Source: an uncultured Flavobacteriales bacterium (GTDB taxonomy: Bacteria > Bacteroidota > Bacteroidia > Flavobacteriales_D > Sanyastnellaceae). From it: a stretch of DNA of 64,000 nucleotides. Positions within the stretch are counted from its first letter, which is position 1. Each line of letters opens with the position of its first letter. Positions 1,434 through 60,479 of this stretch are shown here, one piece after another. Under the pieces are notes generated by a model. That model was not told the origin of the DNA. It saw nothing but the letters and a program-made list of their open reading frames with translations, and made no database searches. The DNA is taken from the NCBI GenBank assembly GCA_938082505.1, contig CALLLH010000027.1:1-64000 (forward strand), in the 5' to 3' direction. A program made the position numbers and the translations under genes.

Positions 1434-3542
1434 GTGATGAGGCGTGTATTTATTTTCTTGATGTGGTCCAGTTTGCTTTCGGTTCAAGGACAGACTTGGC
1501 AGCTGTCGTGGAGCGATGAATTCTCCGGAGCCGCCATCGACAACAGCAAATGGGGCTATGATATCGGGACCGGTGCCGCGCAGGGATTGTGGGGATGGGG
1601 CAACGGAGAACTCCAGTATTACACGGACCACACGGACAACGCCCGTCTGGAGAACGGCCATCTCATCATCGCTGCGCTCGAAGAGAATTTTGCGGGCAGC
1701 AGTTACACTTCTGCAAGGATGGTGACCCGCGACAAATTCAGCCAGACGTATGGCAAATTCGAGGCGCGCATCGATCTGCCCACAGGTCAGGGCATTTGGC
1801 CCGCATTCTGGATGCTGCGCGAGAACAACCCCTGGCCGGGGGAGATCGACATCATGGAGATTGTGGGCAATGCGCCCGGCAGCTGCCATGGTACGGCCCA
1901 TTGGGGAGAAGTCGGTTCCGTCGTCTCTTCCGGGGGTGTCGCGTATTCAACAGATTGGACGACGACATTTCATACTTACACTGTGGAATGGTGGCCCGAC
2001 CACATCCGATGGTCGGTGGACGGTCAGGTGTACTTCGAATTGGACCGGACCCAGGTTTCGCCCGCCAATCCCTGGCTCTTTGCTGAAGACTACCACATGC
2101 TGCTCAATGTGGCTGTCGGTGGCATGTGGCCCGGTTCTCCGGACGCCAGCACGGTATTCCCACAGGAGATGGTGGTGGATTGGGTGAGGGTCTACGAACA
2201 TGTCCCCGAGCCGCAGCCCGTGACGTTCAGGGTGAACCTCAGCGAGGAGAACTTGGGTCCTGGCGACCTGGTGTACGTCACCGGAGCATTTGACAATTGG
2301 GCCGGCAGCACCCATGCGCTATCCGCGGGTGCTGATGGCATCTGGTCCGCCACATTGGACCTGCCACAGGGCATCCATGAATACAAGTTCACCATCAACG
2401 GTTGGGCTGGTCAACAGGAGTCCTTCCCTCCGGGTGCCCCGGGCACATTGACGTCCTTCGGGAGCACCGAGACGTTCGTCAATCGTTTTGTCGACGTGGC
2501 GTGGGATGCCATCGTGACCGATGCGGACTGCTTCTCCTCTTCCGAGGGGTGCCCCGGAACGGGCGGCAGCGGATGCACAGACCCGGATGCGGCGAACTAC
2601 AGTGCAGCTGCGACGGTTCATGATGGCAGTTGTGTCTATGCCGTGCAGTTTTCCGTGGACCTCAACGAAGAAAATGCAGCCGGCCAGGTGGCTTACGTCA
2701 ATGGTACGTTCAACAGCTGGTGCGGTGATTGCGCGCCGATGAACGATTCGGACGGCGATGGGATTTGGGAGGCCAGCGTCATTTTGCCCCCAGGTGAACA
2801 CCAATTCAAATTCACGACCAATGCGTGGAGCGGTCTGATCGAGACGTTTGCGGTCGGGACTTCCTGCACGCAGACGACATACGATGGTCCCAATGTCTAT
2901 ACGAATCGGGTGTTCGACGTCGGGTCCGCCCCGGTTGACCTCGGTACGGTCTGTTTCAATTCCTGTGAGGCCTGTTTGCCTGTCGACCCCGTTTTCCACG
3001 AAGTCACCTTCCGGGTCAACATGCCGGATGCCACCATGGAGGCCCTGATCGAAGTCGGTGGCCAGTCGTATCCGATGACCCATGCACTGTGGGGGGCCAA
3101 AGAAGCCACAGTACTGGTGCCCGGCGGCGTCCCTTTGTCCTATCGCTTCGGGACTCCATCGGCTGCCGGCACGGCATGGGAGTCGCTGCCGTCCCCTTGC
3201 GGTGCAGGGGGATACCGCACCATTACAGTGGCTTCCGACCTGCAAATGGAGGCGGTCTGTTTTACGGAATGTGAGGCGTGCTTGGGTTGTGCAGATCCGT
3301 TTGCATCGAACTACGATCCACTGGCCCACCCCGACTCTCCGGCCAGTCTTTGCAGCGGACAGGCCGAATCGGGCTGTACTTATCCCGAGGGTTCCAATTT
3401 CAGCGCTGAGGCTGTGTGGGATGACGGCACCTGCACCTTTGATCTGTCGACCTCCGACTGTCCCGACAACAATGGAGACGGATTGGTTGGCGTCAATGAC
3501 GTGTTGATTCTACTGTCTGCCTTCGGAGATGTTTGCGAGTGA
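1434..3542 (+). CDS. Secreted GH16 family glycoside hydrolase (laminarinase-like) with CBM/E-set-like repeats, Cys modules and C-terminal dockerin-like tail
   Basis: Signal peptide; GH16 catalytic motif GEIDIMEIVGN; two repeats VTFRVNLSEENLGPGDLVYVTGAFDNW.../VQFSVDLNEENAAGQVAYVNGTFNSW; modules GCTDPDAANYSAAATVHDGSC; tail CPDNNGDGLVGVNDVLILLSAFGDVCE*. Confidence 0.9.
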   Translation: MMRRVFIFLMWSSLLSVQGQTWQLSWSDEFSGAAIDNSKWGYDIGTGAAQGLWGWGNGELQYYTDHTDNARLENGHLIIAALEENFAGSSYTSARMVTRDKFSQTYGKFEARIDLPTGQGIWPAFWMLRENNPWPGEIDIMEIVGNAPGSCHGTAHWGEVGSVVSSGGVAYSTDWTTTFHTYTVEWWPDHIRWSVDGQVYFELDRTQVSPANPWLFAEDYHMLLNVAVGGMWPGSPDASTVFPQEMVVDWVRVYEHVPEPQPVTFRVNLSEENLGPGDLVYVTGAFDNWAGSTHALSAGADGIWSATLDLPQGIHEYKFTINGWAGQQESFPPGAPGTLTSFGSTETFVNRFVDVAWDAIVTDADCFSSSEGCPGTGGSGCTDPDAANYSAAATVHDGSCVYAVQFSVDLNEENAAGQVAYVNGTFNSWCGDCAPMNDSDGDGIWEASVILPPGEHQFKFTTNAWSGLIETFAVGTSCTQTTYDGPNVYTNRVFDVGSAPVDLGTVCFNSCEACLPVDPVFHEVTFRVNMPDATMEALIEVGGQSYPMTHALWGAKEATVLVPGGVPLSYRFGTPSAAGTAWESLPSPCGAGGYRTITVASDLQMEAVCFTECEACLGCADPFASNYDPLAHPDSPASLCSGQAESGCTYPEGSNFSAEAVWDDGTCTFDLSTSDCPDNNGDGLVGVNDVLILLSAFGDVCE

Positions 3543-37903: not shown

Positions 37904-38590
37904 TCAGCAGCCTTCGCCGAATCCTCCCAGCATCTGGAGGACATCCGATACGGTCACGGCTCCATCGCCGTCGAGGTCTGCCCCGCAGTCCACGAGACAA
38001 CCGAAATCAGCCAGCACGACGAGTACATCGGCGACGGAAACGAAGAAGTCGCCTGTGAGGTCCAGCAGGCAGGCGAGTTCCTCAAAGCTGATGAGGCCGT
38101 CGCAGTTGTTGTCCAATCCGCTGGCGGTGCCGGGAGCTCCCGGGAATATGCTGGCGTCTCCGTCATCGCAATCGCAGATGACGTTCTCCCCATCACCATC
38201 GAGGTCCACGATGCCGGCACAATCCTCGAATTGCGCCTGGCAATTGGCAAGGATGCAGGCTTCACAATCGGCTGCACTCCCAAAACCGCATACAAAGAAG
38301 CAGTTGTCTTGGGCACAGGTGCTTTGTTCAGCAAAACACCCGACACAACCTGTGCTCATCGTGGGAATGGCCGCTGCAATGCAACTGGAGAAACAAGCAT
38401 TCAGGTCGCCTGCGAAAATGCAATCGAAGCCACATGCGAAAATGGCGTCATTGACTGCAGCGCCATCCTGACATAATATGCTGAAATCCAAGGAATCACA
38501 CTGCGCCTGAAGCCCTTGGAGGGGCAGGGTGGACAGGCACCATGCGAGCATGCCCCCAATTCTTGAGATTCGGTTCGTCATCACATACAA
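37904..38590 (-). CDS. Secreted Cys-rich protein with MopE-like metal-binding motif and C-terminal dockerin-like doublet
   Basis: Signal peptide (MLAWCLSTLPLQGLQAQC); Cys-rich N-region; CDCDDGDASIFPGAPGTASGLDNNCDG; tail CLLDLTGDFFVSVADVLVVLADFGCLVDCGADLDGDGAVTVSDVLQMLGGFGEGC*. Confidence 0.8.
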   Translation of the reverse strand: MYVMTNRISRIGGMLAWCLSTLPLQGLQAQCDSLDFSILCQDGAAVNDAIFACGFDCIFAGDLNACFSSCIAAAIPTMSTGCVGCFAEQSTCAQDNCFFVCGFGSAADCEACILANCQAQFEDCAGIVDLDGDGENVICDCDDGDASIFPGAPGTASGLDNNCDGLISFEELACLLDLTGDFFVSVADVLVVLADFGCLVDCGADLDGDGAVTVSDVLQMLGGFGEGC

Positions 38591-42314: not shown

Positions 42315-43757
42315 ATGCGACCCCTTCTGCCGCTCTTCCTTGTATTTCCGTTTTCAGGAGTCTTGTCCCAGCAGGTCACTTTCCATGCAGACGTGGCCCC
42401 CATCATCTACCAGCATTGCACTTCCTGCCACCGCGTGGGGGAAATCGCACCGATGCCCTTCACGGATTATGGGGAGGTCGCACCTTATGGCGAGTTCATT
42501 GAATATGTCACCTCCATAGGCTACATGCCCCCATGGTCGCCGGACCCCGAATACAGCCATTTCGTAGGGGAGAATGTGCTTTCACAGGAGCAAATCGCCA
42601 CCTTGGGCGCCTGGGTGGCCGCAGGCAAACCCGAAGGTGACCCCGCGGACAACCCCGGCTTGCCGGAATTCACATCGGGAAGCCAGATCGGCACACCCGA
42701 CCTCGTGCTGACCATGTCCGAACCTTACACGCACGGCGGAGACATGACGGATCAATACCAGGTCTTCGTCCTCCCGTCGGGGTTTGGTGATGGCACGGCC
42801 ATTCGCAGCATTGAAGTCATGCCGGGCAACCACAATGTCGCCCACCACGGCATCCTTGGATTGGATGTTTCCGGAACTGCGGCAGCATTGGACGCTGCGG
42901 ATCCGGAGCCCGGATACGAGAGCTTTGGGGGGTTCGGATTCAATGCGGCGAGTTCCTTCTTCGGAGCATGGGTGCCCGGAGCGCTGCCCGTCGAATACCC
43001 TCCCGGCATCGGCCGGACCATTCCAGCGGATGCCGACCTGCTCCTGCAGATGCACTACGGCCCCACTCCCGTGGTGGAATCGGACCTTTCGGAGGTCAAT
43101 ATTTTCTTTTCGAACGGGCCCATCGAACGTGAAGTGTTCACCGCCATCATGGGGCCGCAGCACTTGGATGCCCCCTTCATCCTGCCGCCGAACCAGGTGT
43201 CCTCCTTTCATGGCACCATGCCGGTCACGGAGGATGTGAGCCTGATCAACATTGCGCCCCATTGCCACCTTGTCGGGGCTTCGTGGTTGGTGTATGCCAC
43301 CTCGCCGGATGGTCAGGACACCATCCCCCTCATTTCCATTCCCCACTGGGATTTCAATTGGCAGGGCTACTTCACCTTCCCGCATCTCACGAAGATTCCG
43401 CAGGGATACACACTGCATGGGGAGGCGACCTATGACAACACCACCAACAACCCCTTCAACCCCAATGACCCCCCTGGATGGGTGCTGTTCGGGGAGGGGA
43501 CCGAGGATGAGATGTTCTTCATTTTCATCGATGTTGTTCCCTATGAGGCGGGTGACGAGGACATTGCGCTCGGACCGTCAGCAACAACCTGTCCTCCGGA
43601 TGTCAACGGGGATGGCCTGGTAGGCGTGACCGACATCCTGCTGCTGCTGGCCGATTTCGGATGCCTTTCCGGATGCACGACGGATGTGGATGGGGATGGC
43701 CTCATCACGGTCTCCGATGTCCTGACCATACTCAGCGTTTTTGGAGAGCCATGCTGA
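42315..43757 (+). CDS. Secreted cytochrome c / copper type II (ascorbate-dependent-like) monooxygenase with C-terminal dockerin-like doublet
   Basis: Signal peptide; HCTSCHRVGEIAPMPF heme c site; NVAHHGILGLD and APHCHLVGASW copper-ligand-like His motifs; tail CPPDVNGDGLVGVTDILLLLADFGCLSGCTTDVDGDGLITVSDVLTILSVFGEPC*. Confidence 0.88.
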   Translation: MRPLLPLFLVFPFSGVLSQQVTFHADVAPIIYQHCTSCHRVGEIAPMPFTDYGEVAPYGEFIEYVTSIGYMPPWSPDPEYSHFVGENVLSQEQIATLGAWVAAGKPEGDPADNPGLPEFTSGSQIGTPDLVLTMSEPYTHGGDMTDQYQVFVLPSGFGDGTAIRSIEVMPGNHNVAHHGILGLDVSGTAAALDAADPEPGYESFGGFGFNAASSFFGAWVPGALPVEYPPGIGRTIPADADLLLQMHYGPTPVVESDLSEVNIFFSNGPIEREVFTAIMGPQHLDAPFILPPNQVSSFHGTMPVTEDVSLINIAPHCHLVGASWLVYATSPDGQDTIPLISIPHWDFNWQGYFTFPHLTKIPQGYTLHGEATYDNTTNNPFNPNDPPGWVLFGEGTEDEMFFIFIDVVPYEAGDEDIALGPSATTCPPDVNGDGLVGVTDILLLLADFGCLSGCTTDVDGDGLITVSDVLTILSVFGEPC

Positions 43758-48867: not shown

Positions 48868-51800
48868 TCATTCCCCGCAGGCTTCCCCATACAAAGCCAA
48901 CAATGCCAGGATGTCAAGGGCGGAAACTGCGCCGTCTCCTGTAATGTCCATGGTACAGCCCGATGCGCATCCAAATTCCGAGAGGATGGCGAGGATATCG
49001 GATGCACCGTGGACACCATCGCCGTCCAAGTCCGCGATGCACGGTTCAGTTGCCCCACAAAGGCCATGGCATGAGCCGTTGTCGAGCTCTGCCGCCGGGT
49101 CAAAATTGCAGGCCGAGGGGTCCGTGCAGCCTTCCCATCCCAACACGGGCAGACAGAAAGGCCCAGCTGATCCGGAACTGAAGTCGTTCCCTGCCGCATC
49201 GTCAGAAAGAGACCAGATGGTGTCTCCTGCCATGGAAAGCAGGTTCATCGTGCCTTCCATGCCACAGAAAGTCCCTGCGAACCCATTGCCCGAAGCGTCG
49301 TGAAGCAGGATGTCGAAGCAACCATGGGTCAGGCACAGGGTGTCCAATACTTCGGTTTCAATAGGGAAATGTTGCCGCCGCCCCCATGGGTTTCCAGCCG
49401 TATCCGCGACGGCCCAAGCCGATTCCATCGGGGTACAGTCCGCCAGGGTCGACATGACGACGGAACCCACTTCAGGCCGCAGGTTCCATGCCACGCCGAG
49501 GACATCATTCTCGGGCACGGCATCCGGCCCACCCGCCATCAGCCCATTGTCCAGATTCCCATCCAATCCCACGGCATCGAGGATTCGAACGACAAGGTCC
49601 TCTCCCGCCGGAACCGCACCCCGGGTCGCTCCTGACCACGCGAGGGCCGCCTCTTCGCCCGGCGGCAATATGAAACCATGTGTGGTCGTATCGGCTTCAT
49701 TCCACAAGAGGGTCACCGAGACCAGCGTATCCGAACCTGCATTCCGGATGGTCGCCGAAATGTCAAGGGGTCCTGAACAGCCCACCGCATCGGTTCCGGA
49801 AATCCCCACTATTGCGGCATCACGGTCAGGCAGCACATGCAATGGCGCCTTCCATAGCCCCCGCCCGTATGTGGCGAGTAGGAGTTCACCCGTGGATTGC
49901 CGTATGGCCAGATCACTGCACAACACCTCTGGAAGTCCGGCTTTGTATGGCATCCAATTGGATGCCCCCTCCGAAAGAACATAGACTCCCGCGTCAGTGC
50001 CCGCATAGAGGTCTCCAGAGGCTGGGTGGTGGGCCATGGTATTGATTGGCAATGCGGGCAATCCCTCGCCAACAGACAGCCACGATTCTCCTCCATCCTC
50101 CGTCAACCACACCCTGTTCTCCCCATCGTATCCCCCGAAGGACAGCCAGAATCGATCCGCATCCACTGCGTCGAATTCCACATCGAGCACTGGCAAACCC
50201 GGGAGCCCGAACAAGGGAGACCAGGCATTGAGGTTCTCGGTCTTGAAGGCGAATGTTCCCCGCGCGACGACCACCGTGCTGTCCTCGGAAGGCGCTGGTG
50301 CCAATACTTCGATCTCTTCTCCGGGCAATGCTGACGTCTGGTTCCATGTGCCGCCCGCGTCATCGGTCCAGTAGACCCTGTGCTTGGCCACGAAAATCCG
50401 TCCGGGATTGTTCGGCGCGAACATGATGGGGGTGTTCCAGTCCCCCTGTTCGTTTACACCGTCGGCATTGCTGCTGATCCAGGGTGACCAGCTCCATCCG
50501 CCGTCCGTGCTCCGGAATGCCCGACCGAAATACTCTGCAGCGATCATGGTCCCGGCATCTGCAGGGTCGATCAAGCAGTGGAATCCATCCGCGCCGAACA
50601 CCTGGGCATGGACCCCGCCATCCAGAAGATTGACCCCATTGTCCTGCCATCCAGACAAGAGGCGGTCCGGCCTTGTTTCAGACCATCCGAGGCGGTACAC
50701 CTGTCCGACCTCCAAGCCCGAGCTCAGGTCGGCAATGCCTTCCTGGGTGCGCCTTCCCACCCCACCATCATGGGCACTGACCCAATCCGAAGTGCCGGGC
50801 AGGAATGTCACCGCGTGGTGATCGGCATGGATGAACGCCGCATCAGCGCCTGCAAACCAGTGCCCGATGCAATTCCATGCCTGTCCACCATCGAAGGATT
50901 CCCAAAGGTTCACACCCCCTGCGAGCACGTGGTCGGCATCGAGGGGATCCATGGCCAAGGCCAGATCATAGAAACCCTGTCCACCGAAGTCAACGCCCTC
51001 CACGGTCCAACCCAGCAGATTGGGCAAATCGGGCACTTCCTGGAAGGAAGCTCCACTGTCCACACTCATGTAGAAACCCTTCAGCCCTTGTGTCCCGCTT
51101 TTGGCAGCAATGGCCGCCACCCGTCCCGGGTCTGCGGCGGAGGTGGCCAAGGTGTATCGGCTCACCAGGAATGGCGAGGGCATTCCGGGTATCGCTTCCC
51201 AATTCCTTCCGCCATCCGTTGAACGCATGAGTTCACCCGGTCGCCTTGCTGCATGCCATATGGAAGAGTCTCCCGGATGCGGCAGCAAATCGGAACAAAT
51301 GCCTTCCAGTGTTTGGATGAAGGTGGCTCCATCGTCCTCGCTCAACCATATCCCATTGGAAGTGGCCGTCAGGATCTGGTTGGCATCGCCTTCCTTTCTG
51401 TGCACCCGGCTGCAGGTGATGCCCGCCTCCAGTTCGAACCCGAGGCCCGTGGTCTCCCACGAAACTCCGCCGTCCACCGACTTCATGAGTCCAACGGCAT
51501 AGGCGCTCCCGAAGTCGGTGTCACCAGTTGCTGCCAGGATGATGTTGGGGTCAAGCGGATGCAACGCGATATCGGAAACACCCATGCCCGCCCAATCCTG
51601 GGTCCCCATAATCGCCCATGATGACCCTGAATTCTGTGTGACCCAGACGCCACCGCTCGGTGCGCAGGCAAACCAGCGGGCCGTATCCTGTGGGTCGATG
51701 ACCACCCGGTTCACCCTGCCGGCCCCACCAATCAGGGGGACGCCACCCGGGACGGCTGGCTCCCAAATTCCCGGATCGACATTCACGCGGGCCTGGCGGC

Positions 51801-52113
51801 CTTGGCGCTCCCATTTGGTGGCGGTCCATGGGGCAGCCGGTGCAAATCCCGCAGCACCCTCAAACGCATAACGGTCCTCAGCGAAGTGACGCCATCGCAT
51901 GAACGGCTTGAAGCCCTTTCCTTTGGCGGGAACGCTGTCCGCCCAGGTCATCTCGAAATCCTGAAAGGCCTGCTCCCAATCGGAACCAGACCACACGCCA
52001 TCGCTCCAGTGTTGCGCCTCCATTGTCCAGGAAGCTGCAACAAACCCGAGCATCACCAGGATTCTGGTGGCACAAGGCCGGGACGGCTCCTTTGCGAAAG
52101 GGCTACAGAGCAT
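48868..52113 (-). CDS. Secreted BNR/sortilin-like beta-propeller protein with one Cys module and C-terminal dockerin-like doublet
   Basis: Repeated SVDGGVSWE, SEDDGATFIQ, STDGGRNWE, SVDSGASFQE, STDGGWSWS, TEDGGESWLS; GCTDPSACNFDPAAELDNGSC; tail CIADLDGDGVHGASDILAILSEFGCASGCTMDITGDGAVSALDILALLALYGEACGE*. Confidence 0.88.
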   Translation of the reverse strand: MLCSPFAKEPSRPCATRILVMLGFVAASWTMEAQHWSDGVWSGSDWEQAFQDFEMTWADSVPAKGKGFKPFMRWRHFAEDRYAFEGAAGFAPAAPWTATKWERQGRQARVNVDPGIWEPAVPGGVPLIGGAGRVNRVVIDPQDTARWFACAPSGGVWVTQNSGSSWAIMGTQDWAGMGVSDIALHPLDPNIILAATGDTDFGSAYAVGLMKSVDGGVSWETTGLGFELEAGITCSRVHRKEGDANQILTATSNGIWLSEDDGATFIQTLEGICSDLLPHPGDSSIWHAARRPGELMRSTDGGRNWEAIPGMPSPFLVSRYTLATSAADPGRVAAIAAKSGTQGLKGFYMSVDSGASFQEVPDLPNLLGWTVEGVDFGGQGFYDLALAMDPLDADHVLAGGVNLWESFDGGQAWNCIGHWFAGADAAFIHADHHAVTFLPGTSDWVSAHDGGVGRRTQEGIADLSSGLEVGQVYRLGWSETRPDRLLSGWQDNGVNLLDGGVHAQVFGADGFHCLIDPADAGTMIAAEYFGRAFRSTDGGWSWSPWISSNADGVNEQGDWNTPIMFAPNNPGRIFVAKHRVYWTDDAGGTWNQTSALPGEEIEVLAPAPSEDSTVVVARGTFAFKTENLNAWSPLFGLPGLPVLDVEFDAVDADRFWLSFGGYDGENRVWLTEDGGESWLSVGEGLPALPINTMAHHPASGDLYAGTDAGVYVLSEGASNWMPYKAGLPEVLCSDLAIRQSTGELLLATYGRGLWKAPLHVLPDRDAAIVGISGTDAVGCSGPLDISATIRNAGSDTLVSVTLLWNEADTTTHGFILPPGEEAALAWSGATRGAVPAGEDLVVRILDAVGLDGNLDNGLMAGGPDAVPENDVLGVAWNLRPEVGSVVMSTLADCTPMESAWAVADTAGNPWGRRQHFPIETEVLDTLCLTHGCFDILLHDASGNGFAGTFCGMEGTMNLLSMAGDTIWSLSDDAAGNDFSSGSAGPFCLPVLGWEGCTDPSACNFDPAAELDNGSCHGLCGATEPCIADLDGDGVHGASDILAILSEFGCASGCTMDITGDGAVSALDILALLALYGEACGE

Positions 52114-52214: not shown

Positions 52215-55157
52215 TTACTGTGGGCAAGCCACACCGAAAGTCGACAGCGCCATCAAGATATCGCTGGCCGCCACGAGACCATCCCCGTTCAGGTCAGGTG
52301 CGCCGCAGCCGTCAACACAACCAAAGGCGCTGAGCATCACAAGAATATCGGATGCGCCACGAAGGCCATCCCCATTGAGATCTCCGGTGCAGACCACTTC
52401 AGCCTCGTCACAGATGCCATCACCGTCCTCGTCGTTCAAACAACGGCCCAGGCAATCCACCGTAGAAACACCATCCACGACGGATCCTGGGTAGAGGTCC
52501 TCCGGTGCGGCGCAAGAGCCATTGTCAATGGTGGCGGAGGGGTTGAAATTGCAATAGGCGACATCCATGCATCCTGCACAGGTCAGGAACTCGCAGGTCC
52601 CATCATCATCCGTCGCCAGATCGTGGTAGTTGCACGCTCCGCCATCCATGCAGCCGGAAACTTCCTCCTCGTCGCACACGCCATCGCCATCTGCGTCATT
52701 GAGGCAGGCTGCATCGCAATCGACAAAGTCCTTGTTGTAGAGGTCCACGGGCGTGATGCAGGAACCATCATCTATTGAAGCCGTCGCGTCATAATTGCAG
52801 GCCTGCATGTCGGTGCAGCCCGAGCAACTCTGGTAGTCGCATGAGGCATCCGTGATCCATGCGCCGGCATCGAAGTTGCATGCCGCAGGATTCGTGCACC
52901 CCGCACAACTCAGGAAGTCACAGCTCCCGTCGTCGAGTGTGGCATTGGAAACGAAGTTGCACGCCGCTTCGTTCATGCAGCCGTTGACTTCCTCCTGGTC
53001 GCAGATTCCATTGCCGTTGACGTCCGTCGTACAGACCCCATCGCAATCCACATGGGGAGAAACATGAAGGTCCTGCTGAAAGAGGCATGTCTCATTGGAC
53101 GGCTGCGTGTAGCCGCTTTCGTAGTTGCACGCCGCCTCATCCATGCATCCGTAACAACCGAAAGTGCAGGTCCCGTCCTCAGTGTCTGCTGTCGCATCAT
53201 AGTTGCACGCCTGGGGAATGGTGCATCCCTCAATGGCCATCACGCCTGCCCGGTCCTCATCCAGCGCTGAAATGCCTTCGATGTCGCAGCTGCTGAAATC
53301 GCACGCCTCCACTTTGTAGAGGTCGGCGTCCGGGTCATAGTTGCAGGCAAAGCCGAGGGGACAGCCTGCACAGGTGAGAAAATCGCAACTTCCATCGTCA
53401 GCATTCGCGGAAACATCGAAGTTGCACGCCTTGGGAGATGTGCAGCCGAGGTACTGACAATCTTGATCGATGGTGGCACAAGCCTCGAAATTGTCCGCGT
53501 CAGCATCCGTGCAACCCGTGATGCGCAGCGCGGGAGAAAAGCTGTTTGCGCCGCACAGGGCCAATTTCTCCTCCCGGTCCAATCCACTCACCTGAAGCTC
53601 GGAATTGGAGAAGATGTTGTCCTGTAGCGTCCAGTCGATGTCCACCTCCATCACGAGGGCAGTGCCGTGCATGTTGAAATTCGTCGACGTTACCGTCAAG
53701 GCGTCAGCAGGATCGCTGCTGACGACGTGAACCCCTTTGGCACCGGCAGATTCGAATGTGCAGGATGAAATCTCCGTCGTTCCAACCTCACCATCTGCTG
53801 TGCTGATGGCAAGCCCGGTTCCATTGCCGAACATGGTGCTGGAAGACACCGAGAGGTGCCCGTTTCTATGGTTGATGGCCTGCGAGAATCCTGAAATTTT
53901 CAGATGTTCGATGACCGTGCCCTGTCGCGCGATGATGCCTGTGGCCTCTGGCGCGCCGCTTCCGACGACGATGCTGTTCCTCAGGATGATGCCCTCCGAT
54001 GCCGGCAGGACCTCGATGCCATCGCCCGCTGAGGCGATTTTCACTCCGTCCAATGTGGGCTGACCACCCGTCACGACCAAACCCGGGATGATGGTCTCAC
54101 TGCTGCGGCCGCTTGTCGCCGCTCCGGCTATGCCTGCGTTGGCGCCCACAATGGTCACTGAATGTCCGATCTCGATCGGTGTGGTGTCATAGGAGCCGGC
54201 TTCCACTTCAATGGTCATGGCGTCTTCTGCGGCATCCACTGCGCTCTGCACTGACATGCCCGGGAAGACCACCATGTGCTGCGTGGCCAAATCGTAGGAG
54301 ACCAACGGGGCAACTTGGGCACCCAAGGCCGCAGCAATGGCCCTGACATCGTCGCTGTGAACCAGGATGCATCCCGTGAGGTCCCCGGGCGCCTCGAGTA
54401 CGTAGTCAAATCCATCGGCATTCATGATGACAGGGAAACCGGCACTGCCGCCGACAGGCAATTCAGACGGGTCAATCTGCACAATGACGCCTCCGCCGCC
54501 GAGGCTTTCCGGACCGTCGAGATCGAGCACCCCGGAAAAGACGATGTCGTGGATCTCCTGGTCATAGTAGTTGGACTCCATGATGGCGATATCACCGTAT
54601 CCATTGTCTGAACTGGTCACATGCTCAATGTGCACATTCGAGCACGTGCTCAATGCCAAACCGAATCCAATGGCGCTGCCGCTTACCGTCACATTGCGGA
54701 TCGTGTTGACGCCCGGACCGGTGAGTCCATTGAGGTCGATGCATGTGCGCGTGGATTCAACCACTTTGACATCCTCAATGGTCAGACTGGAAATACCGGG
54801 TTCGGAATGGATGGCATAGGCCGTATTCACTCCTCCGGACACCACCGTGACATCTTCCAGCGTGATGTTGCTGCTCGACAGTGTGATTCCCCATCCATCC
54901 TCTTCGGACACATCGATGATGGTTACCCCGGTTTCTGATCCGGAGAGCGTCAACGGAATGCTGATCGCCACATGCTCTACGAATCGGGTAGCCGCCAGCT
55001 CAAGATGATCGCCAGCATTGGCTTCATCCATGGCCTCGGCTATGGTTTCGTAAGCGTTTCCTGTCGTGACGTTCAACACGGGATTGGTGGACGCCTCTTG
55101 CGCTGACAGGGCAACTGTGCAGCAGAAGAGCAGGAGTAATGTAGACAGACGGAGCAT
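52215..55157 (-). CDS. Secreted parallel beta-helix protein with about 10 Cys modules and C-terminal dockerin-like doublet
   Basis: Signal peptide MLRLSTLLLLFCCTVALSAQ; beta-helix; modules such as CTNPAACNFDAGAWITDASC; tail CTGDLNGDGLRGASDILVMLSAFGCVDGCGAPDLNGDGLVAASDILMALSTFGVACPQ*. Confidence 0.88.
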   Translation of the reverse strand: MLRLSTLLLLFCCTVALSAQEASTNPVLNVTTGNAYETIAEAMDEANAGDHLELAATRFVEHVAISIPLTLSGSETGVTIIDVSEEDGWGITLSSSNITLEDVTVVSGGVNTAYAIHSEPGISSLTIEDVKVVESTRTCIDLNGLTGPGVNTIRNVTVSGSAIGFGLALSTCSNVHIEHVTSSDNGYGDIAIMESNYYDQEIHDIVFSGVLDLDGPESLGGGGVIVQIDPSELPVGGSAGFPVIMNADGFDYVLEAPGDLTGCILVHSDDVRAIAAALGAQVAPLVSYDLATQHMVVFPGMSVQSAVDAAEDAMTIEVEAGSYDTTPIEIGHSVTIVGANAGIAGAATSGRSSETIIPGLVVTGGQPTLDGVKIASAGDGIEVLPASEGIILRNSIVVGSGAPEATGIIARQGTVIEHLKISGFSQAINHRNGHLSVSSSTMFGNGTGLAISTADGEVGTTEISSCTFESAGAKGVHVVSSDPADALTVTSTNFNMHGTALVMEVDIDWTLQDNIFSNSELQVSGLDREEKLALCGANSFSPALRITGCTDADADNFEACATIDQDCQYLGCTSPKACNFDVSANADDGSCDFLTCAGCPLGFACNYDPDADLYKVEACDFSSCDIEGISALDEDRAGVMAIEGCTIPQACNYDATADTEDGTCTFGCYGCMDEAACNYESGYTQPSNETCLFQQDLHVSPHVDCDGVCTTDVNGNGICDQEEVNGCMNEAACNFVSNATLDDGSCDFLSCAGCTNPAACNFDAGAWITDASCDYQSCSGCTDMQACNYDATASIDDGSCITPVDLYNKDFVDCDAACLNDADGDGVCDEEEVSGCMDGGACNYHDLATDDDGTCEFLTCAGCMDVAYCNFNPSATIDNGSCAAPEDLYPGSVVDGVSTVDCLGRCLNDEDGDGICDEAEVVCTGDLNGDGLRGASDILVMLSAFGCVDGCGAPDLNGDGLVAASDILMALSTFGVACPQ

Positions 55158-55176
55158 AATAATCTCTTTTCGTCTA

Positions 55177-55184
55177 CAAATATA
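55177..55184 (-). promoter_or_regulatory. Bacteroidota -7 promoter box (TATATTTG) upstream of the 52215..55157 gene
   Basis: Perfect TAnnTTTG on minus strand, 20 nt upstream of ATG in an AT-rich gap; no well-spaced -33 TTG seen. Confidence 0.4.
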
Positions 55185-55252
55185 CACATTATAACTGCTA
55201 TTTTGACCTCTCCAAAGTTTATATCTTTGATTTCGTCGAAATTTCCGGAATG

Positions 55253-55301: not shown

Positions 55302-58300
55302 TTACGGACAGCTCGTACCGAAATAGCTCAGCATCTGGAGCACATCGTTTGCTGTTACGATTCCATTTCCATCCAGGTCGGCGTCGCCGCAGTCCGCGCT
55401 ACATCCGTACGCAGCCAAAACCACCAAAATGTCAGAAGCACTTCTGATGCTGTCTCCATTGAAGTCTCCCGGGCAAACGTCATCGGCGTCACAGATGCCA
55501 TCATCATCGGCATCGTTGTCCACGATCACTCCATTGACACACGTCTCACAGATGCCATCCACGTAAGTACAGGATCCGTCGTCGTCGGTGGCGCTTTCCT
55601 CGTAGTTGCACGCCGCGGGATCGTCACACCCCAGTACCTCCAATTCATTGCAGACCCCATCACCATCGGTGTCGTTGAGACAGTCGCCATTGCAATCGAG
55701 GTATGGCGCGGCAGGGAAAGTACATGATCCGTCATCCAGGGCAGCCAGCGCGTCATAGTTGCATGCCGTTGCATCGGTACATCCAAGCTCTTCCTCGTCG
55801 CAAATGCCATCATTGTCCACATCGTTCAGGCACTCGTTGAAGCAGTTCACATAATCCTTGCCATACAATGAGGACGGTGTCGTACAGGAACCGTCGTCAA
55901 AGTCGGCCCCCGGATTGTAGTTGCATGCCGCAGGATTCAGGCAGCCCCCACAGCTTTCAAATTCACATGACCCATCCTCGAAATCAGCCGCCGCAACGTA
56001 GTTGCACGCGGTCACATCGGTGCATCCACTCAATTCATCCTCGTCACAGATGCCGTCGTTGTCCGCGTCATTGACACATCCGCCACCGCAATCCAGATAG
56101 GTGACATTGTAGAGGTCGAGAACGTAAATGCAACTGCCATCATCCGTCGTTGCCCCCGGGATATAATTGCAGGCATCTGCGTCCGTGCACCCTTGACAGG
56201 AAGTGTAGTTGCAGGTGCCATCATTGATTGTTGCCGTGATGTCATAATTGCAGGCCCCGGGATTCGTGCATCCTGCACAGGAGACGTAGTCACAAGAGCC
56301 ATCATCGTCGGTGGCACTGTCCGAGAAATTGCATGCAGAAGCATCCCTGCATCCCAGGATTTCGTTCGGGTCGCAAATCCCGTCGCCATCCGCATCAGCA
56401 AGACAGTCGCCGTTGCAATCGAGGTAGGTTTGAGTAGGATAGGTGCAAGTTCCACTCAGGGTCGCGGAAGCGTCATAGTTGCAGGCCCCAGGATCCGTGC
56501 AACCGGAGCAGGTTTCATATTCGCAGCTGTTGTCAGGCTTGGTCGCCGTCGCATCATAGTTGCATGCAGAAGGGTCCGTGCAGCCGGCGCAGCTCGTGTA
56601 CTCGCAATTGCCATCGTTCTCCGTAGCATTCGCTGCGTAGTTGCAAGCGGAAGCATTCGTGCATCCCAAGATTTCATCGGGATCACATGTGCCGTCACCA
56701 TCGGAGTCGGCAAGGCAATTGCCATCACAGTCCAAAGATGAGGAACCGTAAAGGTCGAGCGGGAAAGTACAGGGCCCTGACAAGGTCGCCGTCGCGTCAT
56801 AATTGCAAGCCGTGTTGTCCGTACAGCCGGTACAGGACTCATAGTCGCACGAGTCGTCGTTGATCAGGGCTGCGGCGTCGTAGTTGCATGCCTCGTCGTC
56901 GGTGCATCCAGCACAGCTCAGCGATTCGCAGGATCCATCTTCATCTGTTGCGCCAGCGGAATAATTGCAGGCATTCTGGTCCGTACAGCCTAATACTTCG
57001 TCCTCGTCACAGACCCCGTCCACATCCGAGTCGTTCACACAGTTTCCAGCGCAGTCCACATTGCTTGAGCCATAGATGTCCACAGGGAATGTACACGTGG
57101 ACGTGGACAACGTGGCACTGGCATCGTAGTTGCAAGCGGTGCCATTGGTGCAGCCCGCGCAGGTGTCGAATTCACAAGGTGCCTCAGCGAGGTAATTGCA
57201 TGCAATAGGCAATGTGCAAGTCGTGATGGCCGGCATGCCGGCGGTCATGCCATACGTGCACCCAAAAGTCAACTGCGGTAGAATGGCCGAGTCGTAGTTC
57301 GTCGCCGCAGGATCGCCACAACACGAGAGGTAATCACACAGGTTTCCATCATGGATGAGCACGTTGGGGTCATAGTTACAGAATCCCTCAATGGCACAGC
57401 CGGCACAAGTGGTGAACTCGCAGCTTCCGTCGTCCACACTGGCGTCCGCGTCGTAGTTGCATGCGCCCGAATTGGTACAACCACCGAAAATGCAGCTTCC
57501 GTCGTCCACATTGGCATCGGCGTCGTAGTTGGTCGCTGTTGCATCCGTGCATCCGAGGAGAATGCAGGATCCATCATCCACCGTTGCATCGGCATCATAA
57601 TTCGTGGCATTCGGATTCGTACATCCACGGCAGCTGTAATAGTCACACGTACCGCTGATTGTGGCGGTAGCGTCGTAGTTGCACGCCTTGGGATTCTTAC
57701 AACCGGCACAGCTTGCGAATTCACACGAACCATTGTCGATGTTGGCACTGGAATCATAGTTGCATGCCGTGATATCGGTACATCCAAAGAAGAAACAGAC
57801 CCCATTGTCAAAGTTGGCGTCGGCATCGTAGTTGTCTGCCGCTGGGTCGGTACATCCGGGAAACAGACACGATCCGTCGTCGAACGTGGCGCCCGCATCG
57901 TAGTTCAGCGCGCCTGAATCCGTGCATCCACGGCAGGAAAGGTATTCGCAGGTTCCATCGTCATTGGTGCTGGTGGCGTCATAGTTGCACGCAATCGGAT
58001 TGGTGCACCCAGCGCAGGATTGGAACTCACAACTTCCATCGTCTTGTGCTGCACTCTCCACATAATTGCACGCACCTGGGTCGTTGCAGCCTGCATAAAG
58101 GCAATTGCCGGAATCGATGGTCGCACATGGTTCGAAGTTGACCGCTGTATTGTCCGTGCAGGCGTCTATGCTGATGGCCGGATTGCTGAAATCATTGCCT
58201 TCGCAAAGTGCGATCCTCTGTGCGGTAGTCAGTCCGATGATTTGAACCTCGGAATCTACAAAGACTCCCCCTTCAACGCGGTGAGCGCAATCCACATCGA

Positions 58301-59852
58301 AACGGAATGCATAGCGGTGCAGGTTGGCTGTGCCGCCAACGACCACAAGGCTGTCCGAAGCGTCTGCCGCGCCCACGATGAATGCATCAGCCCCTGCATT
58401 GCGGAAAGTGCATCCATTGGCTCGGATCACATCGGCAACACCGTTTGCGCTTTGCAACTCTACCCCCCCCCTGTTGTCCGTGACGACACAGGAGGTCAGG
58501 TCGAGGTCGCCTCCCTGCATCGAAACAGCCAAGGGCCAATTCCTCAAGGATGAATTTTCGAAGTCGATTTGACCGGCATTCCGAAGACCGATGGTACTCG
58601 CGTCACCATTCTCCTCGAACCAACCCCTCACTACACTGTTCTTGACCACGATATTGCTGCTGCTGGCAGCAATGTCAAGTCCTATGGGATCGCCCGCTTC
58701 GCCCAGGATCCGGATCCCGTCAATCAACACATTGGATGCGTCGATGATGATGCCCCCTGAGAAAATAGCCTCCGTCTCCCTGACGGGATCGTTGGCCGCA
58801 ATGCCTTGGTTGGGGCCAAGGATGGTGATGGACTTGTTGATGGTGACCGGCTCCGTGTCATACAACCCCGGTTGCGCCACCCGAATCGTCTCGTCCGAAC
58901 CTGAGGCATTGATGGCCTCCTGCAAGGACATGCCCGGCCAGACCTCAATTTCTCCGGTCAACAAATTGCGCCCTTTCAAGTCGGTAACGCCGAGCAAATC
59001 GGTCAAATTATTGGATAGGGCACCCACACTTGATGCCTTGCAAAGGACATACCCCAGGGGATTGCCGTCGTAAGTGGTGGTTCCCGTCAGCTGGTGAATC
59101 AGGCCGGCCTGCATGTCCAGATCGAACCCGATGCCGATGCCGGGATTCACAACGGTCGAGTCGGATTGGATGATGATGCCGCCAAGGCCGTCGCCTTGGG
59201 GACCTCCAAGCGACAGCGTTCCTGCAAAGGTCAAATCACCGGTGCTGTTGGTAGTGTAAGCACTCTCCAGAATACCGATGTCACCGTAGCCATTCTTGGA
59301 GCTGACGAAATCACGCACTTCGACGTTCTGACAGCTGCTCAACGCCAAACCGAAACCAGCGGCCGAATTGATGACCTCACAATCCTCCACCAGGTTCACT
59401 CCAGGACCGACGAGACCATTGAGGTCAATTCCGGATGTCCCGTTGTTGAGCACCCTCACATTCCTTAAAGTCAGGTCCGTGGTGCCCGGGTCACAGTGGA
59501 CGCCGTAGCCGTCATGGGCAATGTTCGACAGAACGGTAATGTTTTCCAACGTGATTCCACTGGTTCCCAACCAGATGCCCCATCCCGTGGTGCCCCGAAC
59601 ATCCAATACGGTACCTCCTGAGGGGTCGCCGATGATGGTCACGGGTGTTTGAATCAACAATCGCTCGGCGAATGTGAGCGCACCAAGGACGATTACATCT
59701 CCAGCATCCGCCTGCTGTATGGCGGTAGAAATGGATTCATAATCGGTTCCACTTGTCGTGTTTTGAATGGGATTGCCCTGGGCATGAAGGCCCCAGAAAG
59801 GAGCGCACAACACGCTAACAATCAGCAGAGAGCAAAGGCGTTTTTGGTCCAT
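55302..59852 (-). CDS. Giant secreted parallel beta-helix protein with about 27 Cys modules and C-terminal dockerin-like doublet
   Basis: Start MDQKRLCSLLIVSVLCAPFWGLHAQ (1516 aa); beta-helix; long array of GCTDPxACNYDxxATxDDGSC modules with DxDxDGxCD inserts; tail CPGDFNGDSIRSASDILVVLAAYGCSADCGDADLDGNGIVTANDVLQMLSYFGTSCP*. Confidence 0.9.
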   Translation of the reverse strand: MDQKRLCSLLIVSVLCAPFWGLHAQGNPIQNTTSGTDYESISTAIQQADAGDVIVLGALTFAERLLIQTPVTIIGDPSGGTVLDVRGTTGWGIWLGTSGITLENITVLSNIAHDGYGVHCDPGTTDLTLRNVRVLNNGTSGIDLNGLVGPGVNLVEDCEVINSAAGFGLALSSCQNVEVRDFVSSKNGYGDIGILESAYTTNSTGDLTFAGTLSLGGPQGDGLGGIIIQSDSTVVNPGIGIGFDLDMQAGLIHQLTGTTTYDGNPLGYVLCKASSVGALSNNLTDLLGVTDLKGRNLLTGEIEVWPGMSLQEAINASGSDETIRVAQPGLYDTEPVTINKSITILGPNQGIAANDPVRETEAIFSGGIIIDASNVLIDGIRILGEAGDPIGLDIAASSSNIVVKNSVVRGWFEENGDASTIGLRNAGQIDFENSSLRNWPLAVSMQGGDLDLTSCVVTDNRGGVELQSANGVADVIRANGCTFRNAGADAFIVGAADASDSLVVVGGTANLHRYAFRFDVDCAHRVEGGVFVDSEVQIIGLTTAQRIALCEGNDFSNPAISIDACTDNTAVNFEPCATIDSGNCLYAGCNDPGACNYVESAAQDDGSCEFQSCAGCTNPIACNYDATSTNDDGTCEYLSCRGCTDSGALNYDAGATFDDGSCLFPGCTDPAADNYDADANFDNGVCFFFGCTDITACNYDSSANIDNGSCEFASCAGCKNPKACNYDATATISGTCDYYSCRGCTNPNATNYDADATVDDGSCILLGCTDATATNYDADANVDDGSCIFGGCTNSGACNYDADASVDDGSCEFTTCAGCAIEGFCNYDPNVLIHDGNLCDYLSCCGDPAATNYDSAILPQLTFGCTYGMTAGMPAITTCTLPIACNYLAEAPCEFDTCAGCTNGTACNYDASATLSTSTCTFPVDIYGSSNVDCAGNCVNDSDVDGVCDEDEVLGCTDQNACNYSAGATDEDGSCESLSCAGCTDDEACNYDAAALINDDSCDYESCTGCTDNTACNYDATATLSGPCTFPLDLYGSSSLDCDGNCLADSDGDGTCDPDEILGCTNASACNYAANATENDGNCEYTSCAGCTDPSACNYDATATKPDNSCEYETCSGCTDPGACNYDASATLSGTCTYPTQTYLDCNGDCLADADGDGICDPNEILGCRDASACNFSDSATDDDGSCDYVSCAGCTNPGACNYDITATINDGTCNYTSCQGCTDADACNYIPGATTDDGSCIYVLDLYNVTYLDCGGGCVNDADNDGICDEDELSGCTDVTACNYVAAADFEDGSCEFESCGGCLNPAACNYNPGADFDDGSCTTPSSLYGKDYVNCFNECLNDVDNDGICDEEELGCTDATACNYDALAALDDGSCTFPAAPYLDCNGDCLNDTDGDGVCNELEVLGCDDPAACNYEESATDDDGSCTYVDGICETCVNGVIVDNDADDDGICDADDVCPGDFNGDSIRSASDILVVLAAYGCSADCGDADLDGNGIVTANDVLQMLSYFGTSCP
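55560..58170 (-). repeat. Tandem Cys-module coding array (ACNYD modules)
   Basis: Recurring codon-phase DNA TCATAGTTGCA(T/C)GC (= GCATGCAACTATGA, ACNYD) throughout; about 27 modules by eye. Confidence 0.9.
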
Positions 59853-60029
59853 ACTATAAAAGTAGACTTTGTTTTGGTGCGGACACAAACTATTGACGGC
59901 ACAAAAGAGGCGTTTCGACGTGGAATATTCTATTTCGGTTATTTTTATACATATTACACACAGCCATTCACTTTGATTTCCGAACCTACAAGAGGTTGTA
60001 CTAATTTCAATAGACCAAAATTTATCCAC

Positions 60030-60479
60030 ATGTATCGCTTCGTTCCCCTTTTCCTCGGACTCCTGATCTTCCCTTCCGTCCATTCCCAACTGACTTTGGA
60101 AGCAGTCTCCTATTCCACGCGTTGCGCGGGCAGCAGCACGGGCCTCGTGGAAATCAGTGCAACCGGAGCATCAGGGTCGGTTACCCTCCTGACGAATGTC
60201 GACCTGACCCAATTGGAGGCTGGCGATTATACGATTAGTGGAGAAGACGAGTCCGGACAGCAGGCCTCCGTGAGCTTCACAATCCTGGACCATCCCGCCA
60301 CATGTGGCTGCACCTATCCTACGGCGTTCAACTATGAGGTGAACGCTGCGGTAGACAATGGATCGTGTGTATTCAGTTCCGACCAGAGCTGCTTGGCCGA
60401 CATTGTCCCGGATGGTATCGTCGGCACGAATGACCTCCTGCAATTGCTGGTTGAATTCGGTGTCGTCTGCACCGAATGA
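60030..60479 (+). CDS. Secreted mini-protein: SprB-repeat-like segment, one Cys module and a single dockerin-like tail
   Basis: Signal peptide MYRFVPLFLGLLIFPSVHSQ; GLVEISATGASGSVTLLTNVDLTQLEAGDYTISGEDESGQQASVSFTI; GCTYPTAFNYEVNAAVDNGSC; CLADIVPDGIVGTNDLLQLLVEFGVVCTE*. Confidence 0.8.
   Translation: MYRFVPLFLGLLIFPSVHSQLTLEAVSYSTRCAGSSTGLVEISATGASGSVTLLTNVDLTQLEAGDYTISGEDESGQQASVSFTILDHPATCGCTYPTAFNYEVNAAVDNGSCVFSSDQSCLADIVPDGIVGTNDLLQLLVEFGVVCTE

Follow-up and report, generated by a model that had tools for sequence, protein, structure and literature searches.

Thrombospondin type 3 repeats and the bacterial family TSP3_bac (PF18884) carry Asp-rich DxDxDG calcium-type loops flanked by cysteines, and dockerins of type I and of GC type (PF00404, NF041540) carry the loop-helix half DxNxDGxxxxxDLLxxLxxFG at the C-terminus, which is also where the type A sorting domain of the type IX secretion system (T9SS; TIGR04183) is placed. 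Among phages, the tail tip in PhicrAss001 is formed by the muzzle, whose crass domain has been proposed to touch the cell (PMC10172136); crAss-like phages also bear BACON domains, which are repeated in tandem and are associated with Bacteroides (PMC6949934). In animals, perforin-2 has been described as having an EGF-like region that is truncated, as well as interstrand disulfides in its P2 domain (PMC6989145). The protein described here, termed the array protein, resembles several of these systems in part. It is encoded on the reverse strand of a 64,000-nucleotide window (contig CALLLH010000027.1, positions 1 to 64,000) from an uncultured Flavobacteriales bacterium of the family Sanyastnellaceae, and its core is an array of an unnamed cysteine module. 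This array is probably a secreted, surface-displayed, disulfide-braced stalk or spacer, and is probably stabilised by calcium.

The cysteine module and its parity rule

Exactly 27 module starts were counted in the array protein, from position 58160 down to 55628, three of them degenerate (57398, 57320 and 57218), which bears out the figure of about 27 given by eye in the initial annotation; residue shuffles of the array region yielded a mean of 0.23 modules and a maximum of 3. The module follows the pattern GCTDxxACNY...DDGSC and occurs in two forms, one of 27 residues with four cysteines and one of 24 residues with two, and part of the array is built of higher-order units in which two plain modules are followed by one bearing an insert. 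No DNA-level tandem array was detected in the window by Tandem Repeats Finder, indicating that the copies are old and have diverged at the DNA level. The conserved positions (C, A, N, Y/F, A and DDGS) look structural in character. No Pfam, NCBIfam or PHROG model matched the module when the window proteins were scanned whole, nor did 56 aligned units find a family for it in Pfam or NCBIfam, so that the possibility of a well-characterised domain with another role, raised in the initial annotation, gained nothing from these libraries. A search of the literature available likewise returned no description of this module or of the tail discussed below.

The strongest regularity in the array concerns its cysteines. 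With C2 denoting the cysteine of ACNY and C4 a cysteine in the linker after C3, the linker to the next module holds cysteines that are odd in number after a module that has C2 and even after one that lacks it, in 304 of the 307 modules of this genome (185/188 with C2 and 119/119 without). The same rule was found in other species (odd in 557 of 606 modules with C2, even in 279 of 286 without) and, less strictly, in viruses (46/84 and 124/142, respectively). When all cysteines are counted, the total is even in 98.7% of the 307 modules of this genome, compared with 52.5% in shuffles (maximum 60.9%), and in 94.5% of 892 modules from other species, compared with 54.2%. The simplest reading of this rule is that C1 pairs with C3 and C2 with C4, the insert pairing within itself; the earlier description of the array as disulfide-rich is thereby strongly supported at the level of sequence.

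The array is not an assembly artefact, a possibility named in the initial annotation. An orthologue from another species (locus L200) shares 71% identity across 1516 residues and a further one (L185) 56%, and most modules match the one at the same relative position in these orthologues, a small block being missing from L200. Relatives of the head domain, with 63-68% identity, were found in three of the five other genomes of the genus, and, among 61 sampled genomes of the family, full-length relatives occur within the genus only. Elsewhere in this assembly, module-array genes run into the ends of eight contigs (C6, C12, C20, C45, C4, C24, C35 and C57), where other arrays may be truncated; this would be expected if near-identical repeats disrupt short-read assembly.

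Calcium-type loops, structure models and the proposed stalk

About six interruptions by a longer unit had been reported in the array, and six canonical DxDxDGxCDxxE inserts were indeed identified, together with a degenerate seventh. Among 56 aligned units, D64, D66, D68, C71 and E75 are invariant. Of 224 loops taken from all loci, 212 have Asp at loop positions 1, 3 and 5 and Glu at position 12, the search pattern having partly imposed positions 1, 3, 5 and 8 and left position 12 free. The resulting 12-residue spacing is that of an EF-hand, and this spacing, along with weak matches to PF18884 in 12 of the 56 units at E<=1, favours a calcium-type loop in the insert. The adjoining paralogue scored 17.8 bits against PF18884 (cut-off 25), and the array protein itself gave no match to that model. 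The likeness to thrombospondin type 3 repeats is thus sub-cut-off and confined to the insert, the 27-residue module itself having no match, and the loop differs from those repeats in closing with Glu at position 12 in EF-hand fashion.

With 56 sequences, AlphaFold2 gave a mean predicted local distance difference test score (pLDDT) of 93.7. A Foldseek search of the 104-residue model against the PDB returned nothing at E<=10; ten viral models were retrieved at E<=0.001, and the crAss-like muzzle model of Virus NIOZ-UU157 fell slightly past that threshold at 1.9e-3. A single-module profile aligned without gaps over 22 residues to MPEG1/perforin-2 (PDB 6u23, residues 332-353; E 0.0067 with one profile, A1, and 0.19 with another, A4). 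This segment fits the two-cysteine form of the module, and MPEG1 structures have been solved; unlike the bacterial arrays, it occurs only once, in an immune protein of animals that belongs to the MACPF type. Judging from the sequence match, mammalian MPEG1/perforin-2 probably contains one copy of the module by common descent.

Taken as a mechanism, a C1-C3 disulfide would close each module, and in the longer form C2 would bond with the linker cysteine C4 beyond C3. In the six modules bearing an insert, the first insert cysteine would substitute for C4 and the other two would pair across the 12-residue EF-hand-type calcium loop. The outcome would probably be a compact, protease-resistant and semi-rigid stalk that distances a beta-helix head from the cell, with the C-terminal half-dockerins acting as an export or anchoring tail. 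A rigid stalk, as suggested in the initial annotation, is plausible from the confident 56-sequence model. Several points weigh against this reading. Parity is weaker in viral modules, where totals are even in 76.5% compared with 53% after shuffling, and since modules are related by descent all the shuffled values overstate independence and are a guide rather than a significance test. The predicted template modelling score (pTM) of the 56-sequence model, 0.61, is a poor guide to overall stiffness, and modelling from the six window sequences alone reached a pLDDT of only 45 and was discarded. What the sequences establish is the repeat and its conservation, the parity rule, the loop pattern and the position of the tail at the C-terminus; the disulfides, calcium binding, stiffness, surface location, export route and the function or ligand of the head are all inferred.

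The gene, its tail and its neighbourhood

The listed open reading frame (ORF) spans 55302..60089 on the reverse strand and opens at TTG; the ATG at 59852, its residue 80, is the likelier start, and this coincides with the upper limit proposed initially. The features of the locus are collected in Table 1. For the beta-helix character previously assigned to the head, the similarity obtained, to NosD and pectate lyases, is weak.

Table 1 Features of the array protein gene and the genes around it
Feature	Position	Strand	Basis
Array protein gene (signal peptide, head, 27-module array, dockerin-like tail)	55302..59852	-	reading frame and likely ATG start
Sec-type signal peptide MDQKRLCSLLIVSVLCAPFWGLHAQ	59778..59852 (end approximate)	-	crude signal-peptide rule, sequence inspection
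Head domain, weakly NosD/pectate-lyase-like (beta-helix type)	58161..59777	-	profile matches, relatives in genus
27-module cysteine array (first C1 codon 58160, last C3 codon ends 55569)	55569..58160	-	
EF-hand-type loop 1 DSDVDGVCDEDE	56997..57032	-	
EF-hand-type loop 2 DSDGDGTCDPDE	56673..56708	-	
EF-hand-type loop 3 DADGDGICDPNE	56361..56396	-	
EF-hand-type loop 4 DADNDGICDEDE	56034..56069	-	
EF-hand-type loop 5 DVDNDGICDEEE	55788..55823	-	
EF-hand-type loop 6 DTDGDGVCNELE	55638..55673	-	
Degenerate seventh loop DADDDGICDADD, right ahead of the tail	55479..55514	-	
C-terminal tail, two cysteine-bracketed half-dockerins reaching the stop codon	55305..55475	-	
Adjoining paralogue, 990 residues, also head-array-tail (head identity 38%, about 9-10 modules)	52215..55187	-	
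Neighbouring protein that combines a sortilin/VPS10-type propeller with a single module and a half-dockerin-type tail as in the array protein	48868..52113	-	
Small divergent neighbour ORF with C-terminal single module and half-dockerin tail	60309..60476	+	

A search with an alignment of 24 tails gave 83 half-dockerin matches genome-wide. In all 52 distinct ORFs that have a stop codon and at least one half, the last half-dockerin ends 0 to 2 residues before it, although the profile spans trailing residues and so favours short distances; none of these ORFs has only an internal copy. Two halves are present in 27 of them and a single half in 25, and 36 also encode the module. Within the window, tails were located at 55305-55475(-), 52221-52391(-), 48877-49041(-), 43590-43754(+), 37907-38071(-), 3459-3539(+) and 60390-60470(+). 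Across the class, tails were matched in 31 of 296 genomes, with at least 28 in each of three family genomes and 0 to 6 in the others. By a crude rule, the array protein and 29 of 39 tail-bearing ORFs start in a signal-peptide-like manner, compared with 17 of 160 controls (non-coding frames included).

The tail had been called dockerin-like, a description that stands for the sequence, with its two DxNxDG halves. By sequence, the closest PDB entry is a dockerin from a GH48 enzyme of the cellulosome (E 1.4e-8), NF041540 (dockerin_GC) scored 21.8 bits on the array protein (cut-off 29), and PF00404 matched the two neighbour proteins below its cut-off. In contrast to type I dockerins, each half is flanked by two cysteines, is often single and always lies at the stop codon, and the tail behaves like a C-terminal signal. 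No cohesin (PF00963) was found at E<=0.01 in this 94.8% complete genome, where divergent cohesins are possible, nor at the same threshold in two other family genomes of the survey and seven genomes of the same order. The genome encodes the T9SS translocon protein SprA (2345 bits) and has 40 TIGR04183 matches above cut-off; TIGR04183 does not match the array protein, and no ORF carries both TIGR04183 and a half-dockerin tail. Array proteins with known ends mostly finish in one or the other. The type A domain shares its C-terminal placement with the tail and ends other array proteins of this genome, but the two are unrelated in sequence.

Occurrence in bacteria and phages, and competing explanations

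Modules are spread over many contigs of this genome (at least 152 matches) and were found in 102 of 296 genomes of the class at E<=1e-6, the family of the present bacterium being far richer than others. Most named relatives are assemblies of marine Flavobacteriales and Crocinitomicaceae; a few records carry the labels Neomarinimicrobiota and Euryarchaeota and are possibly misbinned. A tblastn search of phage and plasmid collections gave no match, for which the BLAST low-complexity filter may be responsible, given that a scan of IMG/VR yielded 309 module-encoding loci. Eighty of these (L101-L180) were analysed, comprising 77 viral module proteins. In 24 of the 77 the module lies directly C-terminal of a crAss-like muzzle domain (e.g., L101:2-5431), and within 450 residues ahead of the first module PF25729 (crAss_MUZ_C) was matched in 22, PF25731 in five and phrog_14478 in 24. 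Genes flanking the muzzle-bearing ORFs had no informative Pfam match.

These muzzle proteins (PF25729, PF25731) carry the same module type as the array protein, but they belong to the virion tail tip rather than to a bacterial surface and show a second cysteine arrangement besides their weaker parity. Many viral modules that have C2 and no linker cysteine carry one just before DDGSC (e.g., CTDPMACNYDATANCDDGSC), which suggests a second partner position. The BACON repeats of crAssphage are comparable as tandem repeats on crAss-like phages, but are a different domain and from the gut, not marine (PMC6949934). One muzzle-type module protein (L157:2-5845) has C-terminal matches of Hint/AXH type and is possibly self-processing. 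Three contigs classed as viral (L123:1481-4804, L169:2429-4258 and L163:1098-3236) encode module proteins whose C-terminus is a T9SS signal domain, of type B or of type A; these may be phage-borne or misbinned host DNA.

The main rival to a stalk is that each module binds a target of its own accord, perhaps glycans or a host or prey surface, which would make the array a device for multivalent adhesion and not a passive spacer. The position of the viral modules next to the muzzle, which lies at the tail tip and is proposed to contact the cell with part of its structure (PMC10172136), speaks for it, as does the range of 1 to about 100 copies per protein in this genome. Given the structural look of the conserved positions and the lack of a match to any known binding family, we regard this alternative as unlikely, and a structural stalk remains the preferred reading. 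It is very improbable that the array protein is a cellulosome-like component docking through its tail into a cohesin scaffold. The GH48 and sub-cut-off NF041540 matches would fit such a role, but the genomes searched yielded no Pfam cohesin, about half of the tails are single and all are terminal, and the proposal was rejected.

Some arrays of the family consist of near-identical copies, such as the equal-scoring ones on contig C20 and the evenly spaced ones in genome G295 near 2.08 Mb, and it could be argued that the array is inert slippage filler, variable in copy number and devoid of selected structure. This is scarcely credible for the present protein, in which tandem repetition is absent at the DNA level. 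It is largely refuted by the module order kept across species and by the cysteine parity rule, which requires selection, and was rejected on these grounds. Similarly, a giant protein of 4421 residues with about 100 modules (L053, G000:C29:1481-14743) is matched in another assembly by a counterpart of 4415 residues with 101 modules (L255).

More tentatively, and with less confidence than the stalk itself, the cysteine-bracketed half-dockerin might be an unrecognised sorting or anchoring signal of the family, parallel to T9SS type A and used in about as many proteins, with the module as a structural part common to marine Bacteroidota surface proteins and crAss-like phage tail tips. In T9SS bacteria, the tail is a candidate second C-terminal signal that can be put to the test, and the parity rule provides a testable disulfide map derived from sequence alone. 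The occurrence of the module beside the crAss-like muzzle connects the tail tips of phages with surface proteins of bacteria, and since this uncatalogued module is encoded at hundreds of loci in marine bacteria and viruses, many large surface proteins in effect lack annotation.

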